A stretch of DNA of 36,327 nucleotides, from NCBI GenBank assembly GCA_028710685.1, contig JAQTTQ010000009.1, forward strand, positions 1 to 36,327, written 5' to 3'. Both the position numbers and the translations under genes were made by a program. Below the pieces are notes generated by a model. The model worked only from the letters and a program-made list of their open reading frames with translations, was not told where the DNA came from and did no database searches. The stretch comes from Candidatus Omnitrophota bacterium. Lineage in GTDB: Bacteria; Omnitrophota; Gorgyraeia; Gygaellales; Profunditerraquicolaceae. This document shows positions 3,955 to 23,252 of the stretch, piece after piece. Positions within the stretch are counted from its first letter, which is position 1. Each line of letters begins with the position of its first letter.

Positions 3955-5085
3955 ATGCCATTAGAAAAAATCTTATTTAATTACTCTGCTTCTAATAATA
4001 CTCTCTCCATAGAAATTTGCGGCCTCTGGAACATTTTTAGCAAAATCCCCCAGGTTTTTGAAGTTAATTCTCAATTATTATCATATCCTGGTATTAAGAA
4101 AATAGTATTTGACGGTTTGAGGATATCCGATTGGGATAGCAGCTTAATTTCTTTTTTATACAGGTTGATTAAGGAATGTAAGGCTAAAGAAATCGAGGTG
4201 GAATACAGTAATCTGCCTGAGGGCGTAGAGAAGTTAGTTGCTCTTTCTTTGAAGATAAAAGAAGGAGAGAAAAAGCCTAAGGCAATACCTGAACCATTTT
4301 TAGCCAGGGTGGCAGAGGGTTTTTTAAATCTAAAGAGAGGTGTTTTGATACTATTCAATTTTTTGGGAGAGATCGCTTGTAGCATGCGTAGTTTATTTAC
4401 TGGCAAAGGATATTTCCGCTGGGGTGAATTCCTGCTTCTTCTCCAGCGTTGCGGGGCGAATGCTTTGGGGCTTGTTTCTTTAATCAGCCTGTTGGTTGGT
4501 ATAATTCTTGCTTTTGTAGGCGCGATGCAGCTTAGGCTTTTTGGGGCGCAGATTTACATAGCCGATATTGTAGGAATTGCCATGGTGCGCGTGATGGGGG
4601 CGGTTATGACGGGGATAATTATGTCGGGGCGTACCGGCGCCAGTTTTGCTGCAGAATTAGGCATTATGCAAGCGAATGAAGAAATTGATGCCCTTAAGAC
4701 GCTAGGTATTAATCCTGTTGAGTTTCTAGTTATCCCTCGCCTGTTAGCTTTAATTGTAATGATGCCGCTTTTAACCCTTTATGCAAATCTTATGGGGATA
4801 TTCGGCGGCTTTATTATTAGTGTCAGCATGTTAAATCTTAATCCCGTAGAATATCTTATGCATACTCAGTCTGCTGTAAAGATAAGTAATCTGTGGGTAG
4901 GATTGCTACATAGTGTTGTTTTCGGGGTGATTATTGCAATTTCCGGATGCCTCAAAGGGGTAAATTGCGAAAGAAGCTCCGCAGGGGTAGGGGAGGCGAC
5001 TACTTCCGCAGTAGTTACTTCTATCACCGTTATTGTAATTGCTACGGCTATTATTACATTTATTTTCCAAGTTTTAGGAGTATAG
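3955..5085 (+). CDS. mlaE: MlaE-type ABC permease with N-terminal STAS (MlaB-like) domain
   Basis: STAS-like first ~100 aa; permease core 'GAVMTGIIMSGRTGASFAAELGIMQANEEIDALKTLGINPVEFLVIPRLLAL' typical of MlaE. Confidence 0.9.
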   Translation: MPLEKILFNYSASNNTLSIEICGLWNIFSKIPQVFEVNSQLLSYPGIKKIVFDGLRISDWDSSLISFLYRLIKECKAKEIEVEYSNLPEGVEKLVALSLKIKEGEKKPKAIPEPFLARVAEGFLNLKRGVLILFNFLGEIACSMRSLFTGKGYFRWGEFLLLLQRCGANALGLVSLISLLVGIILAFVGAMQLRLFGAQIYIADIVGIAMVRVMGAVMTGIIMSGRTGASFAAELGIMQANEEIDALKTLGINPVEFLVIPRLLALIVMMPLLTLYANLMGIFGGFIISVSMLNLNPVEYLMHTQSAVKISNLWVGLLHSVVFGVIIAISGCLKGVNCERSSAGVGEATTSAVVTSITVIVIATAIITFIFQVLGV

Positions 5086-5088
5086 CTC

Positions 5089-5862
5089 ATGAATCTTCCG
5101 GTAAAACCTGCTATTGAAGTGCGAAGCCTAGATCTGAATTATGATGATTTTGTAGTAATGCGGAATCTTAATTTTACCGTTAATAAAGGGGAGACTTTTG
5201 TAATTATGGGTGGAAGCGGCTGTGGCAAGAGTACCCTCCTTAAAGTGCTTATAGGCCTTAAAGAACCAGAGAAGGGAGAAATACTATATAATGGTGAAGA
5301 TTTTTGGGCTGCAGATTATATCAGGCAGCAGGAGATAATGAAGCGCTTTGGAGTGCTTTATCAAAGCGGGGCGCTGTGGAGCTCTCTGACCTTAGGGGAA
5401 AACGTAGCTTTACCTCTTCAACTTTATTCAAGCCTCTCTGTAGGCCAGATAAATGATCTGGTGGAGTTAAAGCTCGCGTTGGTAGGTTTAGGCGGCTATG
5501 CCGATTTCTATCCGGCAGAGCTAAGCGGGGGGATGCGCAAGCGCGCTGGCCTTGCGCGAGCAATTGCCCTTGACCCTGAGATAATATTCTTTGATGAACC
5601 TTCGGCAGGGCTAGATCCTATAAGCGCCAGGATGCTGGATGATTTAATAATTCAATTAAGAGAAGACCTGGGCGCCACCATTATCGTAGTCACCCATGAG
5701 TTAGCCAGTATTTTTACGGTAGGGGAGAATTCTATTTTTCTTGATGCGCAAAGTAAGACAGTGATTGCAAGCGGCAGGCCGAAAGACTTACTGGCCAATT
5801 CCAAGGATCCTAAAGTCATTCAATTCTTAACCAGAGGCGAGAAACAAGGAGTAGGTGAATGA
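5089..5862 (+). CDS. mlaF: MlaF-type ABC transporter ATP-binding protein
   Basis: Walker A 'GGSGCGKSTLLK', signature 'LSGGMRKRAGLARAI', Walker B 'IIFFDEPSAGLD'. Confidence 0.93.
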   Translation: MNLPVKPAIEVRSLDLNYDDFVVMRNLNFTVNKGETFVIMGGSGCGKSTLLKVLIGLKEPEKGEILYNGEDFWAADYIRQQEIMKRFGVLYQSGALWSSLTLGENVALPLQLYSSLSVGQINDLVELKLALVGLGGYADFYPAELSGGMRKRAGLARAIALDPEIIFFDEPSAGLDPISARMLDDLIIQLREDLGATIIVVTHELASIFTVGENSIFLDAQSKTVIASGRPKDLLANSKDPKVIQFLTRGEKQGVGE

Positions 5863-6545
5863 GTAAAAAAGCGAATAAGGCCTTAATCGGTGGATTTGTT
5901 GTGGGGGCAGTAGTTTTATTAATCATATCGGTAGTGGTTCTTGGCTCAGGATTTTTGTTTAAACGTACTAACCGATATGTCCTGTTTTTTGATGGTTCCA
6001 TTAAAGGGCTTTCCGTGGGGGCACCGGTTATCCTCAGGGGGGTAAAAATCGGAACGGTGAGGGATATACATCTTGTTTATGATCCTACCATAGAAGATCT
6101 AGTAATCCCGGTAGTCATTGAGATAGAGTCATCAAGGATCAAAAACGTACCTAAGAGGTTAAGTATTGATGATTATAGGGAGTTAATTAAATCCGGCTTG
6201 CGGGCAAGGCTGGATATACAAAGTTTTATTACCGGGCAGTTAATGATAAGCCTGGATTTTTATGAGGACAAGCCGGCTAATTTACACGAAATTTCCAAAA
6301 AGTACCCGGAGATACCTACCCTGCCTACATCTCCTGATATTTTCCAGCTCATGGACGAGTTGCCTATAAAAGATATGGCAGATGACTTAAGAGAGACAGT
6401 TGCCGGACTTAGTAAGCTAGTAAATTCAGAAGGTTCTTATGGATTGAATAATACGCTTAGGGAGTTATCTCAGGCAGCGCGTTCGATAAGGTTGCTAGTA
6501 GAATATTTAGAGGTTCATCCTGAAGCAATATTAAAAGGAAAATAG
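5859..6545 (+). CDS. mlaD: MCE/MlaD domain protein
   Basis: N-terminal TM, MCE core 'FDGSIKGLSVGAPVILRGVKIGTV', C-terminal 'EYLEVHPEAILKGK'; overlaps mlaF by ATGA. Confidence 0.9.
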   Translation: MSKKANKALIGGFVVGAVVLLIISVVVLGSGFLFKRTNRYVLFFDGSIKGLSVGAPVILRGVKIGTVRDIHLVYDPTIEDLVIPVVIEIESSRIKNVPKRLSIDDYRELIKSGLRARLDIQSFITGQLMISLDFYEDKPANLHEISKKYPEIPTLPTSPDIFQLMDELPIKDMADDLRETVAGLSKLVNSEGSYGLNNTLRELSQAARSIRLLVEYLEVHPEAILKGK

Positions 6546-6558
6546 CAAAGGAGAAAAT

Positions 6559-7179
6559 ATGAAAAAGGTATCTTTCTATTTTATACTGTTACCTAGTTTA
6601 ATCTTAATATTAAATGGGTGCGTGTCTATTGGGAGAAGCCCTTCACCGAGGTTTTATAGGCTTACTTCTATAGGCCAAGAATTTCCAGAAGTTGATTCTA
6701 AGATGAAGAGTGGTGCGGTAGTGGGAATCGGCCCGATTAAGATCCCTGAATACCTGAATCGTCCTCAAATTGCAACCGTAAATAAGAACAGAATGATTAC
6801 CTTTGCGCAATTTGATCGTTGGGGAGAGCCGCTGGATTTATCCATATTAAGGGTCCTAAGCGAGAATTTGGCTTCTTCTATGACGGGGGTTGATATTGAA
6901 ATGTACCCTTGGAATATGCTTATGCCGGTAAGGCTGCAGGTGGTTTTAGATGTTGTGCAGATAGATGTTGAACTTGAGAAAGACCTGATCTTTGTGGTGC
7001 GCTGGTCAGTTCTGGACCTTAAGAATAAGAGCCTGGTCCTTAGCAAGAGGACGGTATTAAAAGAGCCCGTGAAACCTTCGAATTATTCCGGAGTGGCTGC
7101 TGCCTTAAGTTCTGTTTTGGGCAGGCTAGGTAATGAAATTATCCAGGAATTATCGCAGGTTCCTACTCAAGATAAATAA
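6559..7179 (+). CDS. ABC-type transport auxiliary lipoprotein (PqiC/YmbA-like)
   Basis: Lipobox 'LILNGC'; 'FYRLT', 'VGIGPIKIPEYLNRPQIATV', 'RWGEPLDLSILRVLSENL' match this lipoprotein family. Confidence 0.85.
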   Translation: MKKVSFYFILLPSLILILNGCVSIGRSPSPRFYRLTSIGQEFPEVDSKMKSGAVVGIGPIKIPEYLNRPQIATVNKNRMITFAQFDRWGEPLDLSILRVLSENLASSMTGVDIEMYPWNMLMPVRLQVVLDVVQIDVELEKDLIFVVRWSVLDLKNKSLVLSKRTVLKEPVKPSNYSGVAAALSSVLGRLGNEIIQELSQVPTQDK

Positions 7180-7889: not shown

Positions 7890-10106
7890 ATGAAAAGGCT
7901 AGAAAACGGCATAGTTTTTATAAATCCCTATAATCCGGACCCGCCTCCTAATTATTTCGGCCCGCCTTATGGCATCAGTTTAATAGCAGCCTGTATGATC
8001 TCTGCCGGCATAAAAATACCTTTAACGGCATACGATTTTGACCTTGAACCGCGCGATTTCATGCTGCAGTCAGTAGAGCGTATTTTAAGAAAAGAAAAAC
8101 CTGCTTATCTAGCTATAGCTACCCAGAGCTGTACAAGGGGCGGCGTATATGATCTGATAGGCTTAGCCAGGAGAATAAAGCCGGATATTACCATAATTTT
8201 AGGAGGGCCCTTTGCTGCGGTTAAATACGATTTCTTGCTTAAGAGTTTTAAGGTTGACTATGTCGTGGTTGGGGACGGCGAAGAGACAATGGTTGAGCTT
8301 ATAAGTAAGCTGGAAGAAGGGGTAGTGCCTTTAGGGGTTAAGGGAGCTGCTTTCTTGCGTAAGGGGAAAATTTATTTTTCCGGGGAAAGAGATAAGGTGC
8401 TTAACCTGGATTCCTTGCCTTATCCGGCCTTTCATCTTTTTAGGGGGTTTGAGAAAAGGATCAATTCTGGCCGCAGCCTTAAGCCAATGTCTAATTTTAT
8501 ACTGGGGCGCAGATGTACAACCCTTAAGAACGCCCTTTTGATGCTTTCTTCGCGGGGATGTGTTTATAGCTGCAATTTCTGCCCGATGAGCAAAATAGAT
8601 AAAGCTAAAGTCCGTTTTCATAGCCCTGAGTATTTTGTCGATATGGTTGCTTATTTTTATCGCAGGTATGGGATAAAAGATTTTGCCTTCGGGGATAATT
8701 TTTTTACCCTCTCCAGGGAAAGGGTGATGAGCATATGTGATCTAATCCTTAAGAAGGGGTTAAAGATTAAATGGAGCTGCATGACCCGCTCTGACAGTGT
8801 GGATAAGAAAATGCTCAGGGCTATGTCAAAAGCAGGATGTTTTGAGATCTCTTACGGTGTAGAAAGCGGCTCTGAGCAGATCCAGGATAAAATTGGCAAG
8901 AAGTTAGATTTGCTTAGGACAAGGGAAGCATTCAGGCAGACCGGGGAAGTGGGGATTAGAAGCATACTTATGCTAATGGTGGGCAATACAGGGGAAAGCG
9001 AGTCTACCATAAGGCAAACCTTTTGCTATGTTAGGGGGCTTAATCCGGATAGCGTACTGGTTAAGCGGGTTAAGGTCTATCCCGGCACCTTAATTCATGA
9101 TCTGTATGAAAAAAATGGCTTATTAAGGAAAAATTATTATAAGGATTCAGAATTTACCCCTCCTTCTTTTACTTGCGAGCATTCCGAAGAAGAACTGGAG
9201 AGGTTAAGCAGCAGGTTAGGGGAAAGGCGCATCTTTGTCCAGGTTAACAATGTTTGCAATAATAATTGCTATCCCTGCAGATTAAACAGGGAAGTTTCTA
9301 ATAAACAAACTGCAGAAATAAAGAACAGCCTTATTCTGGCTTCAACCCGCTGCGAACATATAGTGCTCTACGGGGGGGAGATATTTTTAAGAAAGGATGT
9401 CTTTAAACTATTGGAATTTGTCGAGCAGATACAAGTACATCATCTTAATATATACGGAAACGCAAGGATATTTTCTTATCCCAAATTTGCGGAGAGAATA
9501 AGTAAATATCATTGCCTGGAGTCATTTATTATCCCATTTTTCGGCTTAGCCCAAATACACGATGACGAGGTGAAGGTAAACGGCGCCTTTAATCAGACAA
9601 TGCTTGGGATAAAAAACCTTAATTGCGCTTCCCGTTCTTTTGAGGTTAAGGCGGCTATATACATTACCGAATCAAACTGCGCTATGTTAGGTGAGCTTGT
9701 TAAACTGCTTGTAGATAACAAAATCAAGAGTTTTCGTTTTATCTTCATGCGCGATTCAATGAAGTTAATCTCGGTTCCTGCCAGGAGGCTGCCTTTAATT
9801 AGCGTTGCGGCAGAAAGCCTTAAAAAAGCAGCCCAATATCTTAAGGGAAAGGGTTTTGAATTCTTCTTTGAAGGTTTTACGCCATGTGTCTTAAAAGGTT
9901 ACCCTCAGCACATAAGTGAATTACTTTCTCCTTTTAATGAGGCAATAACCTATGCCAAAGGTTTACAGGGGTGCGGGGAGATGAGAACTCAAGATAAAAG
10001 AAAGCTTAAATGCTGCCCAGGGTGCAAGGAAGACTTATTATGTGAAGGTGTCTGGAGGAGTTATCTAAAAGAACGCGGTGAAGCTGAGTTTGCGCCAATT
10101 AAATGA
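7890..10106 (+). CDS. B12-binding-like/radical SAM protein fused to a second radical SAM domain with C-terminal Cys motif
   Basis: N-terminal B12-binding-like fold ('PPYGISLIAACMISAG...ILGGPFAAV...VVGDGEET'); CVYSCNFC (8559) and CNNNCYPC (9255); C-terminal 'CCPGCKEDLLCEGVWRSYLKERGEAEFAPIK'. Confidence 0.85.
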   Translation: MKRLENGIVFINPYNPDPPPNYFGPPYGISLIAACMISAGIKIPLTAYDFDLEPRDFMLQSVERILRKEKPAYLAIATQSCTRGGVYDLIGLARRIKPDITIILGGPFAAVKYDFLLKSFKVDYVVVGDGEETMVELISKLEEGVVPLGVKGAAFLRKGKIYFSGERDKVLNLDSLPYPAFHLFRGFEKRINSGRSLKPMSNFILGRRCTTLKNALLMLSSRGCVYSCNFCPMSKIDKAKVRFHSPEYFVDMVAYFYRRYGIKDFAFGDNFFTLSRERVMSICDLILKKGLKIKWSCMTRSDSVDKKMLRAMSKAGCFEISYGVESGSEQIQDKIGKKLDLLRTREAFRQTGEVGIRSILMLMVGNTGESESTIRQTFCYVRGLNPDSVLVKRVKVYPGTLIHDLYEKNGLLRKNYYKDSEFTPPSFTCEHSEEELERLSSRLGERRIFVQVNNVCNNNCYPCRLNREVSNKQTAEIKNSLILASTRCEHIVLYGGEIFLRKDVFKLLEFVEQIQVHHLNIYGNARIFSYPKFAERISKYHCLESFIIPFFGLAQIHDDEVKVNGAFNQTMLGIKNLNCASRSFEVKAAIYITESNCAMLGELVKLLVDNKIKSFRFIFMRDSMKLISVPARRLPLISVAAESLKKAAQYLKGKGFEFFFEGFTPCVLKGYPQHISELLSPFNEAITYAKGLQGCGEMRTQDKRKLKCCPGCKEDLLCEGVWRSYLKERGEAEFAPIK

Positions 10107-13054
10107 TAAAAAATATTTATAAGGATAATAAATCAAAGAGTATCTTTCGGCTGAAACCGGGTTTTTATTTCGCCAATAACCTGCTTGGAGATTATGATTG
10201 TCTTGAAAGTTTTGGCAGATGTAATAATAAGTGCGTTTTTTGTTGTGATTCGGATAATTATAAAGATAATAAGAGCTTATTAATAAAGCCAAGTAGCTCA
10301 CCCAACGGGAAGATCCTTCTCTGCTGCGGAGAGCCAACCAATATTAAGAATGTCGTTAAAACCGTCAAGAATCTAAAGAATAAATATACAACGGTTGCCA
10401 TTTCAACTAACGGAAGAAAATTGGCGGATCTTAAGTTTCTCCGGGCTATGATCAGCGCCGGAGTTAATGAAGCATTCTTTTCTATTCATGGCCACGAGGC
10501 GGCGGTTCATGACAGCATCACCGGGGTTGAGGGTTCATTTGCGCAATCAGTCAAAGGCTTAAAAAATGCTTTGAAGCTTCAGGCTGAGCAGGGTGGCCTT
10601 GAGATAGCAGTTAATGCAGTTATAACTACGAAGAACTTGCCTTTTTTGAGGAAGTATCTGGTATTTCTATATAAACTGGGGATTAGAACCGTTAATTTGG
10701 ATTTGCCTGTTCCTTTGGGCGCGGCAGCTAAATCTTATCGGAAGATTATGCCTCAATACGCGAATGTAGCCTTAGAGTTTGAGAAGGCCCTTGAGGGTTG
10801 CTGTATGAACGGGATGATGATTTTTGTCTCTAATTTACCTTTATGCGTATTTAGTAGCATGAAGGGGGTGGATTACAGTCTTATACTTAATGAAAGCCTG
10901 GAGTTTACAAAGTTACGTTGTAGTGAGAGTGGTATTGTTTGCGCCGATTGTATTGCCAGCAGAGTCTGCCCGGGAGCATTTAAAGATTACGTGGATATTT
11001 ATGGGGATAGAGAATTTAAGGCGTTGAGTGAAATCGGCAGTAAAGAGGAATGTATTCTAAAGAGCAATATTGATAATCTCGCGGTAGTAATAACGTGTAA
11101 ATGTCAGTTGGATTGTCTTTATTGCTACCAGGACCGAGATCGCCCTGATCTCTCTGAAGAGGAACTTTACGCTTCCATAGACCTGCTTTTTACTTCGCCT
11201 TCAGATGAAATTGAACTTCAGTTTTTCGGGGGAGAGCCGTTGCTCAGGCTTGATTTAATTAAGAAGGGTATTAAATATGCCCAGAAAAAGAAAAAAGAAA
11301 CCGGCAAGCAGATCCGCTACCTTTTAACCACAAACGGTTTACTTTTAGATAGAGATTTACTTAAGTTTCTTAAAGAGCAGAATGTTACTATTATGCTTAG
11401 CCTAGACGGTAATTGCCGCACGCATTTGAGAAACCGGCCGTTAAAACATAAGAAGCCAGCTAACTATTTTACCCGTCTCTCTAAGATTTTGCGGCTTATC
11501 AGGGAGGTAGAAAACGATTATTTTATTAATATGGTATTCTTGCCTCGGGATATAAAAGGCCTGAATTTAAATTTAAGCTATTTGATAAAGGCAGGGGTTA
11601 AGGATATTCAGGTTGCTTATGCGGTGGGGGTTATGTTTAAGGACAGCGACATCTTTGCCTGCGTAAAAGCATTTAACAGGCTAAAGGAAGTTGCGCTTAA
11701 GTCAAAAGTCAACTTGCGCAATATTTACACCGATAATGAGCCGGTTCTTTCTTCTCCTCAAATAATGGTTACTGCCGGAGGGGCTATTTATGTGGGGTGC
11801 GGGATCCTTTTAGAGAAGCTTTTCCCTAAGTTCAGCCGGATTTTTTATTCCGGGGATTTGCGTAAGATTACAAGCATATTTTCTTTAAAGCGCTCAAGGC
11901 AGGAACAATTGGCTCTTATTCTAAAGAATATTCATTCTTTATCGCCGGAGTTGTTGAGCAATCTTTATTTAGGGGTTGTTTTATCCCTTTATTCTTTAAC
12001 TAACAGCCTGATTGATGATTATACCTTATTGGCCTCTAATAAGCCTAAACCGGTTGGAAACTATCTTTACAGGGATAAGATGCTTTTGATGCTGACTTAT
12101 CAGTGCCAAATGGGCTGTTCTTACTGCCGAATGGACCGAAGCCATCCTGAAATGCCCGCGGAAACGCTTTATAAGGCAATTGATCTTCTTTTGACTTCTC
12201 CTGAACAGGAGGTAGAGCTTCAATTCTTCGGTGGTGAGCCCCTATTGCGGTTTGACCTTATAAAAAAGGGAATCAGTTATGCCGAGAAAGAAAAGAGGAA
12301 GGTTAATAAAAAGATAAGGTATTTGGTGACTACTAACGGCTTGCTTATAGATAAGGAGAAATTGGATTTCCTGTCCGGATATAACGTATCTTTTTTATTA
12401 AGTATTGACGGAGATGAAAGGACGCAGAAGGCTAACCGTCCGCTTATCGGCGGCAGGGAAGCCTCTTACCCTTTTGGCCTGTTAAGGGAAAAGATGGTTA
12501 TACTTTCAAAGGCAAAATGCAACTATTTTATAAATTTTGTTATCAGGCCGCAGAATATTCCTTACTTATTAAAAAATGTGCATTTTTTCCTGAAGAATGG
12601 AAGCAGAAATTTAAGATTTTCATATGAATTGGGTGCATTTTGGCAACAGGAAAGGATTTTTGAATATTTTCTTAATGTTTTTAGGGCGGTATTAAAATTT
12701 TCGGATGGCTTTGACTGTTCCATAATCAATATAGGTGCGGATGATGAACCGTTTTTAGTCTCTCCGGCATTAACCATGGATTATGACGGTAAGATTTATT
12801 CCGGCTGCACCTTAACCCTGGAAGGCAAATTCCCAGACCTAAAGAAGATAAATTTAGTAGGGGAGGCCGGCAAGATAGATTCAATTTCTGAAATACGCAG
12901 AAGTAAGAGTGAAAGTATCTACAGTATTGTTAATTTTTATCCGCCGAAGTCAACACTCAGGAGGGTTATTCTTAATAATCTATTTATGGGAGAGATCTCA
13001 GGCAGCTTCTTTAGCAGTCTCTTTAATCTAAGCAATGCGGATAAACCAAAATAA
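10103..13054 (+). CDS. triple radical SAM domain fusion protein (983 aa)
   Basis: Three CX3CX2C motifs: CNNKCVFC (10220), CQLDCLYC (11102), CQMGCSYC (12104); two 'FFGGEPLLR' motifs; 'CADCIASRVCPGAFKDYVDIYGDREF' after the first domain. Confidence 0.85.
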   Translation: MIKNIYKDNKSKSIFRLKPGFYFANNLLGDYDCLESFGRCNNKCVFCCDSDNYKDNKSLLIKPSSSPNGKILLCCGEPTNIKNVVKTVKNLKNKYTTVAISTNGRKLADLKFLRAMISAGVNEAFFSIHGHEAAVHDSITGVEGSFAQSVKGLKNALKLQAEQGGLEIAVNAVITTKNLPFLRKYLVFLYKLGIRTVNLDLPVPLGAAAKSYRKIMPQYANVALEFEKALEGCCMNGMMIFVSNLPLCVFSSMKGVDYSLILNESLEFTKLRCSESGIVCADCIASRVCPGAFKDYVDIYGDREFKALSEIGSKEECILKSNIDNLAVVITCKCQLDCLYCYQDRDRPDLSEEELYASIDLLFTSPSDEIELQFFGGEPLLRLDLIKKGIKYAQKKKKETGKQIRYLLTTNGLLLDRDLLKFLKEQNVTIMLSLDGNCRTHLRNRPLKHKKPANYFTRLSKILRLIREVENDYFINMVFLPRDIKGLNLNLSYLIKAGVKDIQVAYAVGVMFKDSDIFACVKAFNRLKEVALKSKVNLRNIYTDNEPVLSSPQIMVTAGGAIYVGCGILLEKLFPKFSRIFYSGDLRKITSIFSLKRSRQEQLALILKNIHSLSPELLSNLYLGVVLSLYSLTNSLIDDYTLLASNKPKPVGNYLYRDKMLLMLTYQCQMGCSYCRMDRSHPEMPAETLYKAIDLLLTSPEQEVELQFFGGEPLLRFDLIKKGISYAEKEKRKVNKKIRYLVTTNGLLIDKEKLDFLSGYNVSFLLSIDGDERTQKANRPLIGGREASYPFGLLREKMVILSKAKCNYFINFVIRPQNIPYLLKNVHFFLKNGSRNLRFSYELGAFWQQERIFEYFLNVFRAVLKFSDGFDCSIINIGADDEPFLVSPALTMDYDGKIYSGCTLTLEGKFPDLKKINLVGEAGKIDSISEIRRSKSESIYSIVNFYPPKSTLRRVILNNLFMGEISGSFFSSLFNLSNADKPK

Positions 13055-14948
13055 AATGGCACAAAGCGGTATGGATAATTGCAAAGTAGAAAGTCTTATG
13101 GTGATGTGTACCTATTCCTGTCAGTTGGATTGCGCTTATTGTTATGTAAATAGGGCCGGTTATTCTATGCCGGAAGCAGTTCTCTATAAAGCGATAAATC
13201 TGCTCTTGACTACAAAGAGCCCCAAGTGCCAGCTAAGGTTTTGGGGCGGAGAGCCTCTTTTGCGGTGGGAGTTTGTAAAAAAAGGGATAAAATATGCCCG
13301 GGTCATGTCCGCTAAAAAGAAAAAGAAGATTAAGTTCATGATCACTACGAATGGCCTGCTTTTGGATGAAAATAAACTGAAGTTTTTAAAGAATTTGCCG
13401 GTTGAGGTAATGTTTTCCCTGGATGGAGCTGAAAAAGCTAATTCAAGGCTCAGGGTATTTAAATCTAATAGAAACTATTATAAAGTCCTCTTTAGCAACC
13501 TGGAGGCGTTGCGTGACTCGGGGGTGCCTTACTTTGTGAATATGGTGGTAACCCCAAAGACTGCTTTAGGGCTGTCAGAAAACTTGAAATTTCTATACGA
13601 TAACGGAATTAAAAGGGTCCAGCTTGGATATCAAAACGGAATTTTTTGGCCGGCTTCTTTGAAGAATGCTGTAATTAATGGAATTGAGAGCTTCATGGCC
13701 TCGGGGGTAAGCAGTGATTTCTTGATGAATTTTGTAAATGAGTGTGAGCCTACTATTCTCAGCCCTGAGGTAATTTCGGATGTTGACGGGGAAATATATT
13801 ACGATGCGGCTATTTTTATGGAGAAGGTTTTTCCAAACTTAAGAAAATATTATTATGCCGGGACGTTAGAGGAGTGTAAAGCTATTGATTCGCTTTATTC
13901 CTGCCGGGATGAGCTTCTTGAAAAGTTTCAGCAATCCTGCACCACTGTTACGCAAAGAAAGGTTCTCCTTAATAATATTAATTTTGGGCTAGAGTTAGAG
14001 AATTTATTTAAGAAACTCTCGCCCGATTCCTTGGATTCAAATGAGCACCCGCTCTTAATTCCGGTAGTCAGGGGGGATTTTGGTAAGCAAAATGATATTC
14101 TGCCCGGGTTAGGGATAAATTCTTTATTCCTGTATGTAGAGGGGCCTTGTTTAAATGATTGTATTTTTTGCAGGCAAAAAGAAGATTTTGGTTACAGCGA
14201 TATTTTTAAGATTCAGGCCCAATTGCAGCGTAATGCTGAATTGAAGGCCTCCCGGCTTTGTATTATCGGAAACGAGCCTTTAGCCCATTGGGGCATATCT
14301 AAGATAGTCTCTTTGGCCGTTAAGTGCGGATTCTCTAAGGTAGAGGTAATGACTTCAGGGGAGGGCCTATGTGATAAGGAATTTACCTCTGAATTAATTA
14401 AAAGCGGAGTTTCATCTCTTTCTCTGCCGGTATTTTCTGATAAGGCATCTCAACATGATATGATCGTGGGGCGAAGGGGAAGTTTTCGCAGGCTAATGGA
14501 AGGGATAAATAATGCCAAGAACCTGGGGGCGGAGGTATTCGTGCATTCTAATTTGCTTAAACAGAATATCGATTCCCTTATACCTCTTGAGCGGTTGGTA
14601 AGAAAAGGGCTTAAGCTGCCCTTTGTTATACTACCTATCAGGCCCAAAAGTGCTAATATGTCTTTTAAAGACCTGATGCCGCCTTATAAGGATATCTTAG
14701 CTAAGCTCTCCGGGATTAATTCTTTGATGGGGTTTCCGATATGCGTAACAGCTAAAGTTCAGGAAAAGGCCTTAAAGAACAAGGAGGATATCTCTGATTC
14801 TATGAAGCTTTATATTCTGGATCAGAAATTTATTAAAATAAACATCTGTAGGGGCTGCCGCTATAAAAATAGCTGCTTGGGGTTTTTTAGGGAGTACGCA
14901 GATATTTACGGGGTTGGAGAAATCTCCGCTATTGTCAAGAATGAATAA
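13035..14948 (+). CDS. double radical SAM domain fusion protein
   Basis: CQLDCAYC (13119) with 'FWGGEPLLR'; CLNDCIFC (14148) with 'GNEPL'; C-terminal 'CRGCRYKNSCLGFFREYADIYG'. Confidence 0.85.
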   Translation: MRINQNKMAQSGMDNCKVESLMVMCTYSCQLDCAYCYVNRAGYSMPEAVLYKAINLLLTTKSPKCQLRFWGGEPLLRWEFVKKGIKYARVMSAKKKKKIKFMITTNGLLLDENKLKFLKNLPVEVMFSLDGAEKANSRLRVFKSNRNYYKVLFSNLEALRDSGVPYFVNMVVTPKTALGLSENLKFLYDNGIKRVQLGYQNGIFWPASLKNAVINGIESFMASGVSSDFLMNFVNECEPTILSPEVISDVDGEIYYDAAIFMEKVFPNLRKYYYAGTLEECKAIDSLYSCRDELLEKFQQSCTTVTQRKVLLNNINFGLELENLFKKLSPDSLDSNEHPLLIPVVRGDFGKQNDILPGLGINSLFLYVEGPCLNDCIFCRQKEDFGYSDIFKIQAQLQRNAELKASRLCIIGNEPLAHWGISKIVSLAVKCGFSKVEVMTSGEGLCDKEFTSELIKSGVSSLSLPVFSDKASQHDMIVGRRGSFRRLMEGINNAKNLGAEVFVHSNLLKQNIDSLIPLERLVRKGLKLPFVILPIRPKSANMSFKDLMPPYKDILAKLSGINSLMGFPICVTAKVQEKALKNKEDISDSMKLYILDQKFIKINICRGCRYKNSCLGFFREYADIYGVGEISAIVKNE

Positions 14949-16053
14949 TTTGAGCGTAGATAAAAAATTATTATACGGTGAATTGCGTAAGGTTGGCATA
15001 AGTAATTTCCTGGAAAGCAATATGCTTGGGGAAGTCTACTTTATGCTTTCGTTAAAGTGTAATCTGCGTTGTAAGGTATGCGCCTGGTGGGGCAAAAGTG
15101 GGCCTTGCCGCAATAAAGCATTCTTAAGAAAATACCCGCCGGTTCTAACTACGAAAGAATTAATGCGCTTTGCCAGGGAGATTTTATCTTATAACCCGCA
15201 CCGTGTCACTTTCTCCGGAGGAGAGCCGTTATTCAATAAAAAGTGGTATTACCTGGCAAAGTTTTTTAAAGAAAACGCAGTGAAGGTTTCTTTAACTACC
15301 AACGGTGTTTTTCTTTTGAAGGAATTTGAGCGGGTTACTAAGGTAGTTGATGAAATCAACCTTTCTCTGGGCGGGCCTCCTTCGATTCTCTCCGTTATAA
15401 GAGATAACCGGAGGCAGCATTTTAAAGACATAATGCAAGGGCTTATTAAGCTAAGCTCTTTTAAAAGAAATAATAACAATAGGCCCAGCTTAAGAATTCT
15501 TTATACTATTTCTAGCTTAAGCTATAAGCATATGCATGAACTTGTGGAGTTTATGGAGGATAATGATATCGCAATTGACCGTTATCATTTCCAGCATCTT
15601 ATGTTTATCGACGAGCCGACGTTTAAGAAACAAAAGGAAGTTTTCTCAAAAGAATTTAATGTTGCGCGTTGCGACTTGTGGAGAGGGTATACATTCCCAC
15701 CGCTGAATCTAGATTTCGATTTCTTTAAGAAGGAGATTGGTAAGCTTTACAAATTGAATAATGTATCTTTCAGCCCTGATCTTAAGGCTCAAGAGTTGGA
15801 ATCATATTATAGGTTTAACCGCGGGGCTTTGGGTTATAACAGATACTGTACTGCCCCTTGGCACCAGATAGATATTATGCCTAACGGAGATATATATACC
15901 TGCCATGATTTATTTATAGGAAATCTCCGGGAGGAGAACTTTAAAGATATATGGAACGGAGAAATTTCCCGCAAACTCAGGTTTCGACTTACTCGAAAGT
16001 TATTCCCCGGTTGCAAAGGGTGCTTTTATCATTATTCTGAAAGGAGCCGTTAA
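14941..16053 (+). CDS. radical SAM/SPASM protein
   Basis: CNLRCKVC (15058), 'FSGGEPL', canonical SPASM 'CTAPWHQIDIMPNGDIYTCHDLFIGNLREENFKDIWNGE...PGCKGC'. The track ORF starts at TTG 14914; ATG 14941 seems more likely. Confidence 0.85.
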   Translation: MNNLSVDKKLLYGELRKVGISNFLESNMLGEVYFMLSLKCNLRCKVCAWWGKSGPCRNKAFLRKYPPVLTTKELMRFAREILSYNPHRVTFSGGEPLFNKKWYYLAKFFKENAVKVSLTTNGVFLLKEFERVTKVVDEINLSLGGPPSILSVIRDNRRQHFKDIMQGLIKLSSFKRNNNNRPSLRILYTISSLSYKHMHELVEFMEDNDIAIDRYHFQHLMFIDEPTFKKQKEVFSKEFNVARCDLWRGYTFPPLNLDFDFFKKEIGKLYKLNNVSFSPDLKAQELESYYRFNRGALGYNRYCTAPWHQIDIMPNGDIYTCHDLFIGNLREENFKDIWNGEISRKLRFRLTRKLFPGCKGCFYHYSERSR

Positions 16054-17463
16054 ATGGAGCTGACCGCCGAACGTTTGAACCTTTACAGGTTTCTCACGTT
16101 AAAGTTAGCGGATGATGATTTGTACCCTCATTACCGTTATGGCGAGAATTTTACGCTTGATGAGATAAAGTTTTTCTGGCGTCGTACAGTAAAAATGATT
16201 CTGGATAAAAAAGCGCCGAAGAAATTAGGTTTGTATATTCACATTCCTTTTTGCCATCAGAAGTGTAATTATTGCATGTGCGATTCCTATGTTCCTTTTT
16301 CTTACGGCCAGGTTAGCGAGTACCTTGCTTTGCTTAAGAAAGAAATAGGCTATTTTTCGGACCTTTTTAAAGATGTTTCTTTTACCTCAATTTATTTCGG
16401 AGGAGGCAGTCCTTCGTTTTTGCGTCCTGTAGACCTGGATAATTTTCTTAGATTTATTTACGGGAGTTTTTCTTTTTCTCATGATTGCCAGGTTATTTTT
16501 GAAGGGACGCCTACCGATTTAAATGAGGAGTATATAGATCTTTTAATGCGGCATGGAGTGAACCGTTTTACGATAGGAGTTCAAAGTCTTGACTCTAAGG
16601 TAATAAGAAATATTAAGAGGCCGCAGACTAGGGAAAAATTCGTCAGGATCTTTAAATACCTGAGAAAATTAGGGGCCCCCTGGATAAATGTGGATTTAAT
16701 CGCCGGATTGGAAGGGCAGACTAAGGAATCTTTTGTCTCTGATGTTAAGCTGATGCTGGATTTAGGGGTAGATATGGTTCATGCCAGCGGCTTTTCTCCG
16801 TTACCGCATACTCCTTTCAGCAGGCAGGGAAAGAAGTTTACCCTTGAAAACGAAAGATTACGCGATGAGATGATGGAGGCCTTTGAGGAGATAACGAAGA
16901 ATAACACAGGGGCGAATGCATTGGAAGATGGCGCAGGATATAAGGATGGGGCAGAGAACCTGCAGGAAACCGATTTGCGTAAAGAAAACTCCTCTCTTTT
17001 AGGCATAGGTTATAGCGCCCAATCTCATGCCTTTGCGCAAGCCTGGTATGAGCATCCCTGTCTGACCCATTTAAAGAAAAGGCCAACTTATAATAAGCTG
17101 CCTTTGTTCAGGGGCGTAAGGAGTAGTTTAAAGGAGGAAATGATAAAATTTATTTATAATAACTTGCAAAGCGGTTTTTCCAGAAGGTTATTCCGTTCTC
17201 TCTTTGGCATGGACGCTACCAAAGTTTTTAAGCGGGAGTTTCTTCTTTTAAGTAAGCTAGGTAAGGTTAACATAAAAGGGGATAGGATTATTTTCCAGGT
17301 AGGGCCTGAACATCTTATTTATTCAAAAATCTTTTACAGCAAAAAGAGGCTGCGTGATATACTTAAGATCCATGGCCACAGTTATAGAGAAAATAAAGAT
17401 TACCGTAAGGAATTGGAGAGATTCTACCCGGAAATCTATCTTTCCCGCGAGAATATAGGATGA
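16054..17463 (+). CDS. HemN-like radical SAM protein (coproporphyrinogen III oxidase-like/class C-like)
   Basis: 'LGLYIHIPFCHQKCNYCMC', 'SIYFGGGSPSFL', 'RFTIGVQSLDSKVI', 'VDLIAGLEGQT'. Confidence 0.85.
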   Translation: MELTAERLNLYRFLTLKLADDDLYPHYRYGENFTLDEIKFFWRRTVKMILDKKAPKKLGLYIHIPFCHQKCNYCMCDSYVPFSYGQVSEYLALLKKEIGYFSDLFKDVSFTSIYFGGGSPSFLRPVDLDNFLRFIYGSFSFSHDCQVIFEGTPTDLNEEYIDLLMRHGVNRFTIGVQSLDSKVIRNIKRPQTREKFVRIFKYLRKLGAPWINVDLIAGLEGQTKESFVSDVKLMLDLGVDMVHASGFSPLPHTPFSRQGKKFTLENERLRDEMMEAFEEITKNNTGANALEDGAGYKDGAENLQETDLRKENSSLLGIGYSAQSHAFAQAWYEHPCLTHLKKRPTYNKLPLFRGVRSSLKEEMIKFIYNNLQSGFSRRLFRSLFGMDATKVFKREFLLLSKLGKVNIKGDRIIFQVGPEHLIYSKIFYSKKRLRDILKIHGHSYRENKDYRKELERFYPEIYLSRENIG

Positions 17464-18404
17464 GCAAGATGCTGCCCGATACCTTGATATTGATGGTGAC
17501 CTACAGGTGCAATCTCAACTGTATTTATTGCCCGGTTATAAAATCACGCAGTACTATGCCGTTTTATTTAGCCCAAAAGGCTTTGGATATTTTTGTTTCA
17601 CGCAACCCTTATTTAAAGAAAATAAGGTTTTTCGGAGGAGAGCCATTGATAAAATTTGATGTCATTAAGCAGGTGATAAACTCCTGCGGGAATATGGGTA
17701 AAGGCCGTATTTCCTTTGATTTAACTACCAATGGTACGTTGCTTAGTAAAGGAATATTAAAGTTTCTTGCGGATAATCCAAGGATTGAACTTATTCTCAG
17801 TCTTGACGGAGACTCAAGAACCCAGTCTTTGAATAAGGTTTCGCATAACCCCCGGGTTGTTCCCTATGACCTTCTGGTAAAAAAACTTCCCTTTTTGCTT
17901 AAGCTTCCGCTGGTTACGGTTAATATGGTAGCTGCGCCTAATCAGGTCAGGGAGTTTTTTAATAATTTTAACCATATTTTATCCCTTGGTTTCAAGCGTT
18001 TTAATTTCTTACCTGCTTATTATGTTACATGGAAGCAAGCGGAACTGAAGATTCTGCGAGGCGAGTTTAATAAGATCGCAAGCTCTATCATAAGGAATAA
18101 AAACGTATATGTTAAAAACCTGAGTTTTTGTAGTGAGACTGCGCTTTTTAATAATGCGGTAGTAGTGGACTGCAACGGAGATATCTTCTCAAATAATCTT
18201 ATTTTATCCAGGGCCTTCTTGGGGTTACGCAATAGGATGAAACTGGGGAATGTCAGAGATTTTAGAATCGATGATTTAAAGAAGGGTGAGGACTTGAGCT
18301 CTCTTATGGGAGGGGCAGCTTATAAAAAGATAATTAATGCTGCAGAGGCGCCGGATCGCATCCTTACCCATTTTGTGGAAAGGTTAAAATATGAAAAGAG
18401 TTGA
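17460..18404 (+). CDS. radical SAM protein, GGEPL type, SPASM-like C-terminus without Cys pairs
   Basis: CNLNCIYC (17508), 'RFFGGEPLIKFD', 'LTTNGTLL', 'LSLDGDSRTQ'; ATGA overlap with upstream gene. Confidence 0.82.
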   Translation: MSKMLPDTLILMVTYRCNLNCIYCPVIKSRSTMPFYLAQKALDIFVSRNPYLKKIRFFGGEPLIKFDVIKQVINSCGNMGKGRISFDLTTNGTLLSKGILKFLADNPRIELILSLDGDSRTQSLNKVSHNPRVVPYDLLVKKLPFLLKLPLVTVNMVAAPNQVREFFNNFNHILSLGFKRFNFLPAYYVTWKQAELKILRGEFNKIASSIIRNKNVYVKNLSFCSETALFNNAVVVDCNGDIFSNNLILSRAFLGLRNRMKLGNVRDFRIDDLKKGEDLSSLMGGAAYKKIINAAEAPDRILTHFVERLKYEKS

Positions 18405-19284
18405 TGTTAAAACTAATTTTAATTGTAATAATCAATGCCGGTTTTGTGTGCAGGGCAATAAGCGCGAGCTTTACCCTCCAAAAACTACTAAAGAGGTAAA
18501 AGAAATACTCAGGCAATCCCGAAGAACGCATGAAGCGGTAGTCTTTACCGGAGGAGAAGTTACTATAAGGGAAGATATAATCGAGTTGGTGAAGTTTGCC
18601 CGTTTACTTGATTACCGCTTAATACAGATACAGAGCAACGGCAGGATGTTTTGTTACGAGAAATTCTGCGATGAGATAATTGCTGCCGGGGCAAATCAAT
18701 TTTCTCCGGCTTTGCACGGGCACATCCCCGCCCTTCATGATTTTCTTACTCGTTCAAAAGGGAGTTTTCTTCAGACTTTAACCGGCATAAGAAACCTTAA
18801 GAAGAGAAAACAGGATGTTATAGTTAATTGTGTGGTTACTAAGCCTAATTACCGGAATTTACCCGATATTGCCCGGCTTTTAGTGCATTGTAAGGTTAAT
18901 CAGTATCAATTTGCTTTTGTCCATGCAGGAGGTAGGGCAGGGGAAAATTTTGATGCCATCGTCCCCAGAAAGTCATTGGCAGTTCCTTTTATAAAGAAGG
19001 GTTTGGATATAGGCATAAAAGCAGGCATAAAGGTTATGGCTGAGGCCATACCATTTTGCCTTATGCAAGGATATGAAGATTATATCGCCGAGAAGTATAT
19101 TCCCAGTACAAAAATATATGATGCTGAGTCAGTGGTGGATGATTTTGCCCAAGTCAGGAAGAATGAGGGTAAGGCTAAGGGTCCGCTTTGTAAGAAGTGC
19201 AGTTGCTTTAATATCTGCGAAGGGCCATGGAAAGAGTACCCGCAAAAGTTTGGATGGGATGAATTTGTTGCGATAAAAGAATAA
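18391..19284 (+). CDS. radical SAM protein with C-terminal CxxCx5C-G-W-x-E-Y motif
   Basis: CNNQCRFC (18424), 'FTGGEVT', 'CKKCSCFNICEGPWKEYPQKFGWDEFVAIKE'. Confidence 0.85.
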   Translation: MKRVDVKTNFNCNNQCRFCVQGNKRELYPPKTTKEVKEILRQSRRTHEAVVFTGGEVTIREDIIELVKFARLLDYRLIQIQSNGRMFCYEKFCDEIIAAGANQFSPALHGHIPALHDFLTRSKGSFLQTLTGIRNLKKRKQDVIVNCVVTKPNYRNLPDIARLLVHCKVNQYQFAFVHAGGRAGENFDAIVPRKSLAVPFIKKGLDIGIKAGIKVMAEAIPFCLMQGYEDYIAEKYIPSTKIYDAESVVDDFAQVRKNEGKAKGPLCKKCSCFNICEGPWKEYPQKFGWDEFVAIKE

Positions 19285-19296: not shown

Positions 19297-22032
19297 ATGA
19301 ATAACAGTTGTAAAAATTTGCATAAAGGATTTCCCGGGTTCATTTATTTCAGGCTTGCCAAAAGAAGCAAGGATTTGCCAAGGCCGTTGCTTTTGCGCCG
19401 GGCCCGAGAGTTTTCTCAGGTTAAGCCCCATCTTCAGAGAGAGAGGCCATCCTTAAACTTTATCAGGAAGGCGCCTGTAAAGGTTCTTCTGTTTAAGAAT
19501 ATTTTTAATTCTGCCGATAAAGAGCAAACCCGGGGTTTTTGCTCCGCATCTCTTTATTTAGCTTCCGGATTAAAGCGTAAGGGTATAGATGTTATCTTCT
19601 CGGAAGCAAAAATCCCGCTTGATAAAAACGATTCCCTATTTTTTAAAGAAGAAATTGAAAGAATTCTTTGTAAAGAGCAGAATATAAAGTTTATTTGTAT
19701 TTCGCTCTGCGAAGGCTTCTTTGAACAAGCCCGCGACTTGATAAAGTTTATTCGCGCAAGGACAAAGGCCTTTATTGCTGTGGGGGGCGTTATGCCTACC
19801 TTGACCCCGGAGCATGTTTTTGTGCATTTACCGGAATGTAATTGCCTTATAAGGGGAGCGGGAGAGGATGTATTGCCGCGATTAGTCGAGCTTTTGTCCA
19901 ACAAGGATATCGACTCCAATTTCACAGAGGAAGAGCTGGGTTTATTTTCCGGGTTTAACGGTTTTCTATTCCATTCCAGGCGTGTCTTTATTTCTTCCGG
20001 GTTAAATATTATTAATGCGCCTCTTAATTACGATGATTCTTTGCTGGATTTGAATTTCTTAAATAAAGAAGATGTAAAAGACGGGCTGAACCTTTTTACC
20101 TCCAGAGGATGCTATAACTGCTGTACTTTCTGTACTTCTTTTGGCAAGGGCAAATTGCTCGCTAAGAGCTTTACAGAGTTTAAGAAAATTATCGCAAATT
20201 ACCTAAAAAGGCTTAATGAAGTTTTTGGTGATAAAATTCCCGCTTCAGCCCTTATGCTTGCTTTCCATGATGATGATTTTCTTGCCGATCATAAGAGGGC
20301 AGGGGAGATTTTTTCTTATTTATTAAAACAGCCAGTTAGAATTGATTTCTTTCAGACCGGCATTAATTCATTCTTCAAGCGTAGGAAAGAGGGATATTTA
20401 CAGGCTCTTGATAGAGGTTTAATAGAAGCCATCTCCCCGGAAATATTTGTTAAAGGTAAAAAAAGGAATCTTTATATCGGCACGGAGAATTTTTCTAATC
20501 CAGAACTTATCCGGCTGGGTAAGGGGTATGAATTCAAAAAGGTAGAAAAAGTCGTAGCTGCTTTATCCAAGAAGAAGATATACCAGAGCCACCATTTAAT
20601 TTTAAGTAACCAGTTAACGGGTATTTCGGACCTTTTAGAGAATTTGCTGAAAATATCCGTTTTGAGGATAAAGTATAATGAGTTTTTCAATATTCTAACG
20701 CCTATTATCCCTTATCTGGTTTCTTTTTACCCTTCCTTAAGCTATAGAAATATTATTTTTTCCCGTAAGGCTAAAATGCTTAATATAAGGCGTAAGCTGT
20801 CCATAAAAGGATATCCCGAATATGATTATCCTCTGGTAGATAACGATATCCCTATTGATGAGGCCGTAAGGGAGATGGTCCCGTTTGTCTATAATTTATT
20901 TTTACGATTTAAAGATTATTCCCGGGTCTTTGAAGAGGCATTTTCTGCGCTCTTGTTTTTAAGGGAAAAACTGCCCTCTAGCAGGAGTAAGATAAATTAT
21001 GTAGTCAGGGATTATAAGAATTATCCCGAAGTTATTTTACGTGAAACCGGCGTAAGGGTCTGCGCCGATAGAAACAACCTCCAGCTTATGATTACGCGCA
21101 GATGCCAGTTGGACTGCAGCTATTGCCCCATAATAAAAAAGAATATTGATATGGATGAGGCAACCCTGTTTAAGGCGATTGATTTATTGTTTACTTCTTC
21201 CGGCAATGAAGTCCGTATAGACTTTACCGGTGGAGAGCCGTTACTTCGTTTTGACCTGGTAAAAAAGGGGGTAGGGTATGCTAAGGCTAAAGCCATTAAA
21301 TCAAAGAAGCATGTTTCTTTTTATATGGTCACTAATCTTATCGCCCTGACCGAAGAAAAAGCGGATTTTATCGCTGGTGAAGATTTCTTCCTTGAGCTTT
21401 CGGTAGATGGAGAGGAAAGATTCCATAATTGCTATAAGCTTTCAAGGGATAAGAAGATTAATCCATACCGGGTAACTACTGCTAACCTGAATATGATATT
21501 TTCGCGCGGAATAGATAACTATGCGGTTATGGTCGCTAATCCTGCCATAATCCGGCATTTGTATAGTAATTTTAATCATTTACTTAAGCTGGGTTTCAGT
21601 AATATCGGGATTAATTATGCCCTTTGTTCTTTGTGGCAAGATAAACCTCGAAGTGAGTTCTTCCGGCAGACAGATAAGATAATTAATGAGTTTGCGCCAT
21701 ATTTAAAGAGCGGAAAGATAAAATTGAGCAACTTAGGCTCGCGCTCTGAGCCGGCGGTTCTAAATAATGAAATCATGGTAAATAGCGACGGAAAAGTTTA
21801 TTGTTTATCTGATTGGCTTTTTGAAAAAAGCGGACATACCAATATCCTGCCATTGGGTAAAGTGGGGGGCTTCAAAAGTATCAGCGAGCTTTCTTTTGCT
21901 AAACCCCTGCAGCTTTTAAGGATGCTTGATGGCCACAACCTTTATCAGCGTAAGATCATCTTTAATAATATTGAAATGGGGATGATAGCCGATAATTATT
22001 TTAAATCATGGAAAAAGCGGTTGAATTTATAA
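19297..22032 (+). CDS. B12-binding-like/radical SAM protein fused to a second radical SAM domain (911 aa)
   Basis: N-terminal 'AFIAVGGVMPTLTPEHVF...LIRGAGEDVLPRLVELL'; CYNCCTFC (20110); CQLDCSYC (21103) with 'FTGGEPLLRFD'. Confidence 0.83.
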   Translation: MNNSCKNLHKGFPGFIYFRLAKRSKDLPRPLLLRRAREFSQVKPHLQRERPSLNFIRKAPVKVLLFKNIFNSADKEQTRGFCSASLYLASGLKRKGIDVIFSEAKIPLDKNDSLFFKEEIERILCKEQNIKFICISLCEGFFEQARDLIKFIRARTKAFIAVGGVMPTLTPEHVFVHLPECNCLIRGAGEDVLPRLVELLSNKDIDSNFTEEELGLFSGFNGFLFHSRRVFISSGLNIINAPLNYDDSLLDLNFLNKEDVKDGLNLFTSRGCYNCCTFCTSFGKGKLLAKSFTEFKKIIANYLKRLNEVFGDKIPASALMLAFHDDDFLADHKRAGEIFSYLLKQPVRIDFFQTGINSFFKRRKEGYLQALDRGLIEAISPEIFVKGKKRNLYIGTENFSNPELIRLGKGYEFKKVEKVVAALSKKKIYQSHHLILSNQLTGISDLLENLLKISVLRIKYNEFFNILTPIIPYLVSFYPSLSYRNIIFSRKAKMLNIRRKLSIKGYPEYDYPLVDNDIPIDEAVREMVPFVYNLFLRFKDYSRVFEEAFSALLFLREKLPSSRSKINYVVRDYKNYPEVILRETGVRVCADRNNLQLMITRRCQLDCSYCPIIKKNIDMDEATLFKAIDLLFTSSGNEVRIDFTGGEPLLRFDLVKKGVGYAKAKAIKSKKHVSFYMVTNLIALTEEKADFIAGEDFFLELSVDGEERFHNCYKLSRDKKINPYRVTTANLNMIFSRGIDNYAVMVANPAIIRHLYSNFNHLLKLGFSNIGINYALCSLWQDKPRSEFFRQTDKIINEFAPYLKSGKIKLSNLGSRSEPAVLNNEIMVNSDGKVYCLSDWLFEKSGHTNILPLGKVGGFKSISELSFAKPLQLLRMLDGHNLYQRKIIFNNIEMGMIADNYFKSWKKRLNL

Positions 22033-23252
22033 TTAATTCTTATCTTTCCTCGCCCTATAAGCGCAAATTGGATTATCTGGATAATTTCCTATTTTCGCTT
22101 TTATTCAGAAAAGAAAACCTCCTGCTTAGAAACCCTGGTAGTAAGAGCGCAAAAGAAATAGAGGGGTTTTTGGGTAAATATTATGACTATAGGGATATGA
22201 TATATAAGAGGATGATTAAGCTTAACCCGGGAAGGGAAAATAAGCTGATTGAGGATATTTATCTTCCTCCTGACCGGCTGGTTTTTCTCTTAACCCATAA
22301 TTGCCAATTAAGGTGTAAATATTGCAGGGTAAGGAAATTTACCGCTTCAATGGATAGGGATGTTTTATTTAAGGGAATTGATTTGCTTTTGACTTCAAAT
22401 GCCGATGAATTACAGGTACAGTTTTTTGGAGGGGAGCCTTTGCTTAAATACGGCCTTTTGAAGAAGGCGGTTGAATATACAAATAAAGCCAGGCTTAATA
22501 ATAAAAAGTCCGTAAGCTTCTTGCTTACTAGTAACGGGATTGAGCTAACAAAGGAGAAAGTAGATTTCTTTAGAAAGCATAATTTCACGGTTGAGTTTAG
22601 TATAGACGGTGAAATTAAAAACCAGCTTAGTTCCAGAAAGTCACCTAACGGTATTAACTATTATGCTAAGATGTTGAGTAACTTTAACTACCTTAAGAAG
22701 TCGCGCCTTCCTTATTATTCAATAAGCGTGTTCATGCCGGAGAATGTATCAAATATGTTTGAAAGTTTTCTGTCTCTGGTTAATTCCGGATTTGAAAGGC
22801 TGCAGATTAATTATGCCTTAGGTGTTTTCTGGGATAAGAAGGCAAGCCATATGCTTTTTAACCAAACCAGGAAGGTAATAGACTTTGTCAGAAAAAACAA
22901 GAATATAGAGTTTATTAATTTAAGCAGTATGCGCAAAGAACCTGTTGTCTTGAATGCTGAGTTAACCCTTGACTGTGACGGCGGAATATACCTTGAATCC
23001 GGAATATGCCTGGAAGAGGATTTTGCAGCTATGAAGGATAAGTTTAAAGTTTCCAGCATTAAAACAGCAAAGAATATTAATTTGCTATCAACCTCTGATT
23101 TCCGTAATTTCTACAATCTTTCCAGGGTATACGGCAGGGTTAGCCCGCTTTTTAGGAAGATAATAGTCAATAATATTAAGCTGGGAAGTGAATACGGAAA
23201 GTTGTTAGAATATGAACAAGGTAGAGGATCCCGTAGTGAAAAAGAAGATTAA
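22008..23252 (+). CDS. radical SAM protein, GGEPL type
   Basis: CQLRCKYC (22302), 'VQFFGGEPLLKY', 'LTSNGIELT', 'FSIDGE'; overlaps upstream gene by 25 bp. Confidence 0.83.
   Translation: MEKAVEFIINSYLSSPYKRKLDYLDNFLFSLLFRKENLLLRNPGSKSAKEIEGFLGKYYDYRDMIYKRMIKLNPGRENKLIEDIYLPPDRLVFLLTHNCQLRCKYCRVRKFTASMDRDVLFKGIDLLLTSNADELQVQFFGGEPLLKYGLLKKAVEYTNKARLNNKKSVSFLLTSNGIELTKEKVDFFRKHNFTVEFSIDGEIKNQLSSRKSPNGINYYAKMLSNFNYLKKSRLPYYSISVFMPENVSNMFESFLSLVNSGFERLQINYALGVFWDKKASHMLFNQTRKVIDFVRKNKNIEFINLSSMRKEPVVLNAELTLDCDGGIYLESGICLEEDFAAMKDKFKVSSIKTAKNINLLSTSDFRNFYNLSRVYGRVSPLFRKIIVNNIKLGSEYGKLLEYEQGRGSRSEKED

Follow-up and report, generated by a model that had tools for sequence, protein, structure and literature searches.

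A triple radical SAM protein within a 14-gene array with a probable role in Hxs peptide maturation in an Omnitrophota bacterium

The window (the whole stretch of DNA analysed, a complete contig of 36,327 bp from a Candidatus Omnitrophota bacterium) encodes a 983-aa polypeptide with three complete radical SAM (rSAM) domains, and the gene is one fused member of a larger block of rSAM genes. The protein is, with good probability, a three-enzyme fusion belonging to an accessory array that matures an Hxs (His-Xaa-Ser) peptide, most likely in trans on an HxsA4 peptide encoded elsewhere in the genome. The Hxs system is defined bioinformatically by one HxsB, one HxsC, HxsD and a repeat peptide. The array is best read as an exceptionally expanded accessory rSAM set of the Hxs kind, the triple fusion included.

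Domain structure of the triple protein

The original prediction described a single unbroken ORF holding the motifs CNNKCVFC, CQLDCLYC and CQMGCSYC, each followed by an rSAM core of its own, and this description is borne out. The ORF lies at 10103-13054 on the forward strand, the three motifs start at aa 40, 334 and 668, and each is followed by a GGE-type motif (LLCCGEPT in domain 1 and QFFGGEPLL in domains 2 and 3) and a TNG strand. Pfam family PF04055 matches three separate stretches of the protein (6.4e-35), so that a CxxxCxxC motif together with a matching core domain, the hallmark of the radical SAM superfamily, occurs three times. Structure prediction with AlphaFold gives a partial alpha/beta barrel core in every domain. 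In the model of the whole chain, the cores of domains 1 and 2 are confident (pLDDT mostly 80-96), domain 3 is weakly confident with its shallow alignment, and the placement of the domains relative to one another is not confident (pTM 0.39). Modelled alone, domain 3 reaches a pLDDT of 85 and a pTM of 0.85; its top match in the PDB is CteB (5wgg, E 1.6e-18), and its nearest neighbours there are peptide-modifying enzymes, namely CteB, anSME, ChlB, TigE, SkfB and SuiB.

The protein has the order class A - class B - class B (A-B-B), the two classes being those that dominate the array. Domain 1 (10175-11059, forward strand) is HxsC-like and carries, behind CNNKCVFC, an auxiliary-cluster motif made up of C248 and C280-x2-C283-x5-C289; all four cysteines are invariant in the corresponding alignment (A4), in keeping with a SPASM/twitch-type domain. 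Domain 2 (11057-12061, forward strand) has an HxsB/PapB-like core and a SPASM tail without the cluster cysteines, and domain 3 (12059-13051, forward strand) is of the same type. Neither has the auxiliary cysteines of SPASM/twitch proteins, as no cysteine is conserved after the core in class B. Scores of the protein against the curated families stay below their cut-offs: 213 bits over two domains for HxsB (TIGR03978; cut-off 370), 128 bits for HxsC (TIGR03977; 267.9), 136 bits for HxsC4 (NF038332; 500) and 260 bits for PapB (NF047865; 340).

The array and its enzyme classes

The triple gene is part of an array of 14 ORFs (7890-29506), all on the forward strand and overlapping or abutting with spacings of -41 to +12 bp. 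The array contains 13 rSAM genes with 19 CxxxCxxC domains and one divergent U32-like ORF; two of the rSAM proteins are B12-binding and five are multi-domain. About half of the PF04055 matches in the whole 1.24-Mb genome (18 of 38) fall within it.

Most of the domains belong to two classes, with eight in class A and six in class B. The NCBIfam families closest to class A are HxsC and HxsC4, and the C-terminal end of this class shows an auxiliary-cluster pattern, C-x2-C-x5-C with one further upstream cysteine. Class B is closest to PapB and HxsB, and most of its members retain a D-x-D-G-x-(I/L)-Y hairpin. The curated cut-offs of HxsB, HxsC, HxsC4 and PapB are reached by no array protein. Some of the domains might be non-catalytic, and either or both of the triple's class B domains might serve in peptide binding or as a scaffold; none of the six class B domains in the array has the SPASM cysteine set, and the GGE motif of domain 1 is a variant (CCGEP). 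Such a role is unlikely, however, given that CxxxCxxC and GGEP are strictly conserved in every sequence of a class B alignment across phyla, and activity is known for rSAM enzymes that lack an auxiliary cluster.

The gene before the triple encodes a 738-aa fusion of a B12-binding rSAM and a class A domain (7890-10106), which has an orthologue in another Omnitrophota genome, G849 (G849_37744, 45% over 733 aa). The triple gene is followed by a 637-aa class B and class A fusion (13035-14948), with orthologues in Omnitrophota (47% over 617 aa) and in Elusimicrobiota and Myxococcota (33-37% over about 600 aa), and by a 379-aa radical SAM/SPASM protein (14914-16053) that matches PF04055 and PF13186 and is orthologous to G849_31958 (37%). 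Next come a 469-aa HemN/HutW-like rSAM protein (16054-17463), a 314-aa class B rSAM (17460-18404) that falls in a clade with Hxs-operon genes of Schekmaniibacteriota and Moraniibacteriota, and a 297-aa class A rSAM of the CEGPW(K/R)EY type (18391-19284), a widespread family often found within Hxs operons. A 911-aa fusion of a B12-binding rSAM and a class B domain (19297-22032) is orthologous to G849_22784 (47% over 851 aa); its B12-rSAM core is overlooked by Pfam yet has the motif CYNCCTFC, for which the orthologue has CRNGCFFC. The 414-aa class B rSAM at 22008-23252 (orthologue G849_28144, 43% over 401 aa) precedes the divergent U32-like protein of 341 aa (23212-24237), which scores below the PF01136 cut-off and ends in the cysteine cluster CDKDCHTCSYC; its weak matches in two Hxs arrays of other genomes (G115 and G099) exceed that cut-off, at 32 and 45 bits vs 22.4. 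The right end of the array consists of a 304-aa class A rSAM (24237-25151; orthologue G849_44311, 46%), a 452-aa HemN-like rSAM protein (25154-26512), a 683-aa double class A fusion (26513-28564) whose domains have orthologues in genomes G001, G048 and G849, and a 312-aa class A rSAM (28568-29506; orthologue G849_47104, 57%). A HemN or heme-pathway reading was rejected, as the HemN-like protein tested falls far under the HemN and HutW cut-offs.

Outside the array, the window holds genes of other kinds. The gene at 1543-2001 codes for a peptidase inhibitor of the Chagasin family (I42; PF09394) whose N-terminus is signal-like, and Mla-type lipid transport genes (an MlaE-like permease, an ATPase, an MlaD-like protein and a lipoprotein-like ORF) occupy 3955-7179, upstream of the array. 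Just past the array, on the same strand, a 373-aa rSAM protein (29897-31018), of AmmeMemoRadiSam type by eye and with an N-terminal signal-like segment, is probably not part of the array.

Origin of the fusion

Domains 2 and 3 had been described as clear internal duplicates. They are paralogues, being 40% identical, but a recent internal duplication does not hold: it was suggested by a first small tree and ruled out once G849 was added. The class B tree joins domain 2 to the single-domain gene G849_39890 (99/95) and, with weaker support (83/63), domain 3 to the single-domain gene G849_30880; the latter pair belongs to a larger clade that takes in genes of Elusimicrobiota and Myxococcota (96/85). 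The tree likewise joins the 637-aa ORF's first domain to G849_40900 (100/99). By blastp, G849_39890 is closer to domain 2 (39%) than to domain 3 (31%), and G849_30880 and domain 3 are reciprocal best matches at 35% identity. As each domain groups with its own single-domain gene in G849, domains 2 and 3 were in separate genes before the fusion. Judged from these trees, the triple is a fusion of pre-existing paralogues, and the duplication that gave rise to domains 2 and 3 predates the split from G849. G849_39890 sits exactly between the orthologues of the genes at 7890 and 13035, which is the slot of the 983-aa gene, and the simplest history is therefore that a domain-2 gene was already present there and acquired domains 1 and 3. 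No clear orthologue of domain 1 was found in the class A tree.

A scan of genome contigs with the whole 983-aa protein as query gave no relatives, and these were obtained instead with a conserved single-domain alignment (A1) as query. The search for the same three-domain architecture yielded another triple but no second A-B-B protein, most of these searches having scored only two candidates per genome. The second triple is a 967-aa ORF in the Myxococcales MAG JAUVCD010000174 (L162:9338-12241); it shares with the 983-aa protein three complete rSAM domains per ORF and an rSAM-rich neighbourhood, but its domains run A-B-A. The B-A portion has its orthologue in the 637-aa ORF at 13035-14948, so this triple is an independent fusion. 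A further relative, in genome G154, is an A-B fusion interrupted by the contig end. Nothing pertinent to multi-rSAM fusions was found in the literature searched.

The single A-B-B example, the separate state of domains 2 and 3 in G849 and the metagenome-type assembly in 84 contigs would all fit an ORF created by an assembly or sequencing error that joined neighbouring single-domain genes. Such an artefact is very improbable, as it would take two independent errors, and one missed stop would not give the domain order, the G849 orthologue of domain 3 lying about 9 kb from that of domain 2. Inspection of the DNA found no homopolymer run of at least 7 at the domain junctions; many stops interrupt the alternative frames at each junction, and GC3 varies little along the ORF (0.42-0.44 in all three domains). 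Related fusions (the A-B-A of 967 aa, A/B, B/A, B12/A, B12/B and A/A) also occur in unrelated assemblies.

Linkage to Hxs systems and proposed role

The genome itself contains an Hxs system. HxsA4 (74 bits; cut-off 55), HxsB (537; 370) and HxsD (67; 50) are all encoded above their cut-offs on a second contig, C11, together with two HxsC-like genes. HxsA4, the only HxsA homologue found in the genome, is 129 aa long and contains about 20 repeats of the form His-x-x, most of which include Ser or Gly. The array is not contiguous with these genes, as it lies on the contig that forms the window (C34), within which no precursor peptide gene was found. The Hxs operon (L038:6374-13753, reverse strand) also encodes a 384-aa prepilin-peptidase-like protein, a 331-aa cysteine-containing, secreted-looking protein and a 147-aa secreted protein with the sequence TTYYPSPYGSY, which recurs beside Hxs operons of the phylum.

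As the array and HxsA, HxsB and HxsD are on different contigs, their linkage was inferred from relatives. Most array genes have orthologues on contig C26 of G849, where these come directly after, and on the same strand as, a set of genes for a secreted protein, HxsD (67 bits), HxsB (494 bits) and an HxsA-type repeat peptide. HxsD and HxsB score above their cut-offs; the HxsA-type peptide, at 37 bits, is below its cut-off, yet it has a leader and ...HASHPSHTSHGSHGQW. The orthologues, 30-57% identical to the array genes, stand in the order 17460, 18391, 19297, 22008, domain 3, 14914, 7890, domain 2, 13035, 24237, 26513 and 28568 (array genes being named by their start positions). The G849 array therefore shares conserved sub-blocks with the array of the window, but it has another block order, lacks the triple fusion and has domains 2 and 3 as separate genes; it ends with a DUF483-like gene and a putative prepilin-peptidase-like gene. 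At the joined coordinates 46363-47102 (L276), the G849 orthologue of the second domain of 26513-28564 is split in two short ORFs, through either gene decay or an error in sequencing.

Hxs operons with similar mixed and partly orthologous arrays, and with HxsA, HxsB and HxsD above the cut-offs, are present in Schekmaniibacteriota (L115) and Moraniibacteriota (L105). An Elusimicrobia contig (L259) has HxsD-HxsB followed by a B12-rSAM, a class B gene, a B12-rSAM/A fusion, a B/A fusion and an 18391-type gene. The class A tree places the 18391 gene among genes embedded in Hxs operons, and genome G108 has the 18391 type in tandem with the two class A types of C11 within one Hxs operon, three families that the present genome splits between C34 and C11. 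Among loci spanning at least 14 kb around an 18391-type gene, an Hxs core gene was found in 13 of the 20 that have at least six rSAM domains, vs 8 of the 29 that have fewer; these counts are descriptive, as the loci were picked by similarity and the counts cover the DNA examined only. Within the genus, G001 combines an Hxs operon with a segment that is syntenic with the array's right end and includes the U32-like gene, and G004 (95% complete) shows no HxsB, HxsA or array match. HxsB co-occurs with matches to the 983-aa protein in 9 of the 10 genomes that have HxsB, but these counts are not the main evidence, because Hxs-operon genes can themselves give such matches.

The array could instead serve another substrate, such as a cofactor, a lipid or a different ribosomal peptide, and owe its likeness to Hxs arrays solely to the recruitment of enzymes from them. 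This would account for its separation from HxsA, HxsB and HxsD, for an Hxs operon that is already equipped with HxsB and two HxsC-like genes, for the failure of every array member to reach an Hxs cut-off and for several related multi-rSAM loci with no Hxs gene in the DNA examined, many of which end at contig ends. It is nevertheless improbable, as G849 has orthologues of most of the array contiguous with HxsD-HxsB-HxsA, and orthologues of several array genes are contiguous with Hxs genes in Schekmaniibacteriota, Moraniibacteriota and Elusimicrobiota. The paired presence in G001 and absence in G004, and the single HxsA homologue of the genome, also argue against another substrate.

Since the same genes elsewhere adjoin genes for His-Xaa-Ser peptides, the block most likely modifies one small histidine-repeat protein. 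Under the Hxs reading, the array would act in trans on the HxsA4 of C11, together with HxsB, HxsD and the two HxsC-like enzymes encoded there. The substrate, catalysis by all three domains of the triple, their order of action and the chemistry are inferred. The proposed substrate would be a long tract of near-identical tripeptides, on which each enzyme would act by hydrogen-atom abstraction and introduce one type of modification, class A enzymes with a SAM-binding cluster and one predicted auxiliary cluster and class B enzymes with a SAM-binding cluster alone. The B12-binding and HemN-like members could contribute methyl groups or oxidative steps. Fusion of domains may hold enzymes of successive steps on the long repeat tract, and the channelling or sequential action proposed in the original prediction is plausible; the fusion alone is weak evidence for channelling, as the gene is one of 13 consecutive rSAM genes and related arrays repeatedly show fusions of two or three domains. 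Against the Hxs reading, HxsA4 is a simple repeat, and a need for about 20 enzymes is not obvious; no description of Hxs chemistry was found in the literature searched. A bolder and decidedly tentative possibility is that such arrays, in Omnitrophota, Elusimicrobiota, Patescibacteria, DPANN archaea and Myxococcota, work as assembly lines for ribosomal peptides, in which about 20 dedicated rSAM domains would process a single HxsA repeat peptide in a set sequence, with fused domains performing consecutive steps, to yield an extensively radical-modified and probably surface-exported polypeptide.

Classical Hxs systems (HxsA, HxsB, HxsC and HxsD; TIGR03976-TIGR03978, NF038313, NF038332) have one HxsB and one HxsC. 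The present system resembles them in its HxsA4, HxsB and HxsD, in the affinities of its class A and class B enzymes and in the operon linkage of its orthologues, but differs in having 19 extra rSAM domains, B12-dependent and HemN-like ones among them, in its multi-domain fusions and in being unlinked from its own HxsA. Class B cores score best with PapB, a ranthipeptide maturase, and the class B fold, as modelled for domain 3, is closest to CteB of the SCIFF maturases. Unlike both, class B lies below the PapB cut-off, lacks the SPASM auxiliary-cluster cysteines and has no cysteine-rich precursor nearby.

Across several phyla, mostly of uncultured bacteria, about ten to more than 20 further rSAM domains accompany each small Hxs peptide, which places Hxs among the most heavily enzyme-equipped peptide pathways known to us. 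The recurring fusions (A-B-B, A-B-A, B12-A, B12-B, B-A and A-A) suggest which enzymes serve neighbouring steps, and the question of the Hxs product can now be tested with defined gene sets.

Two further features of related arrays were observed. Companion proteins of about 290-320 aa without a confident Pfam match, absent from the window, adjoin class B genes in the Hxs arrays of G029 (L044:12648-13514 and 15732-16628), G048 (L040:2567-3523), G021 (L052:3377-4297), G115 and G099. In G088, a genome from another family of the class, contig C103 (L046-L048) carries a very large array, with a 943-aa ORF that has two B12-rSAM-like cores and with other multi-domain ORFs next to HxsB/HxsD-like genes.
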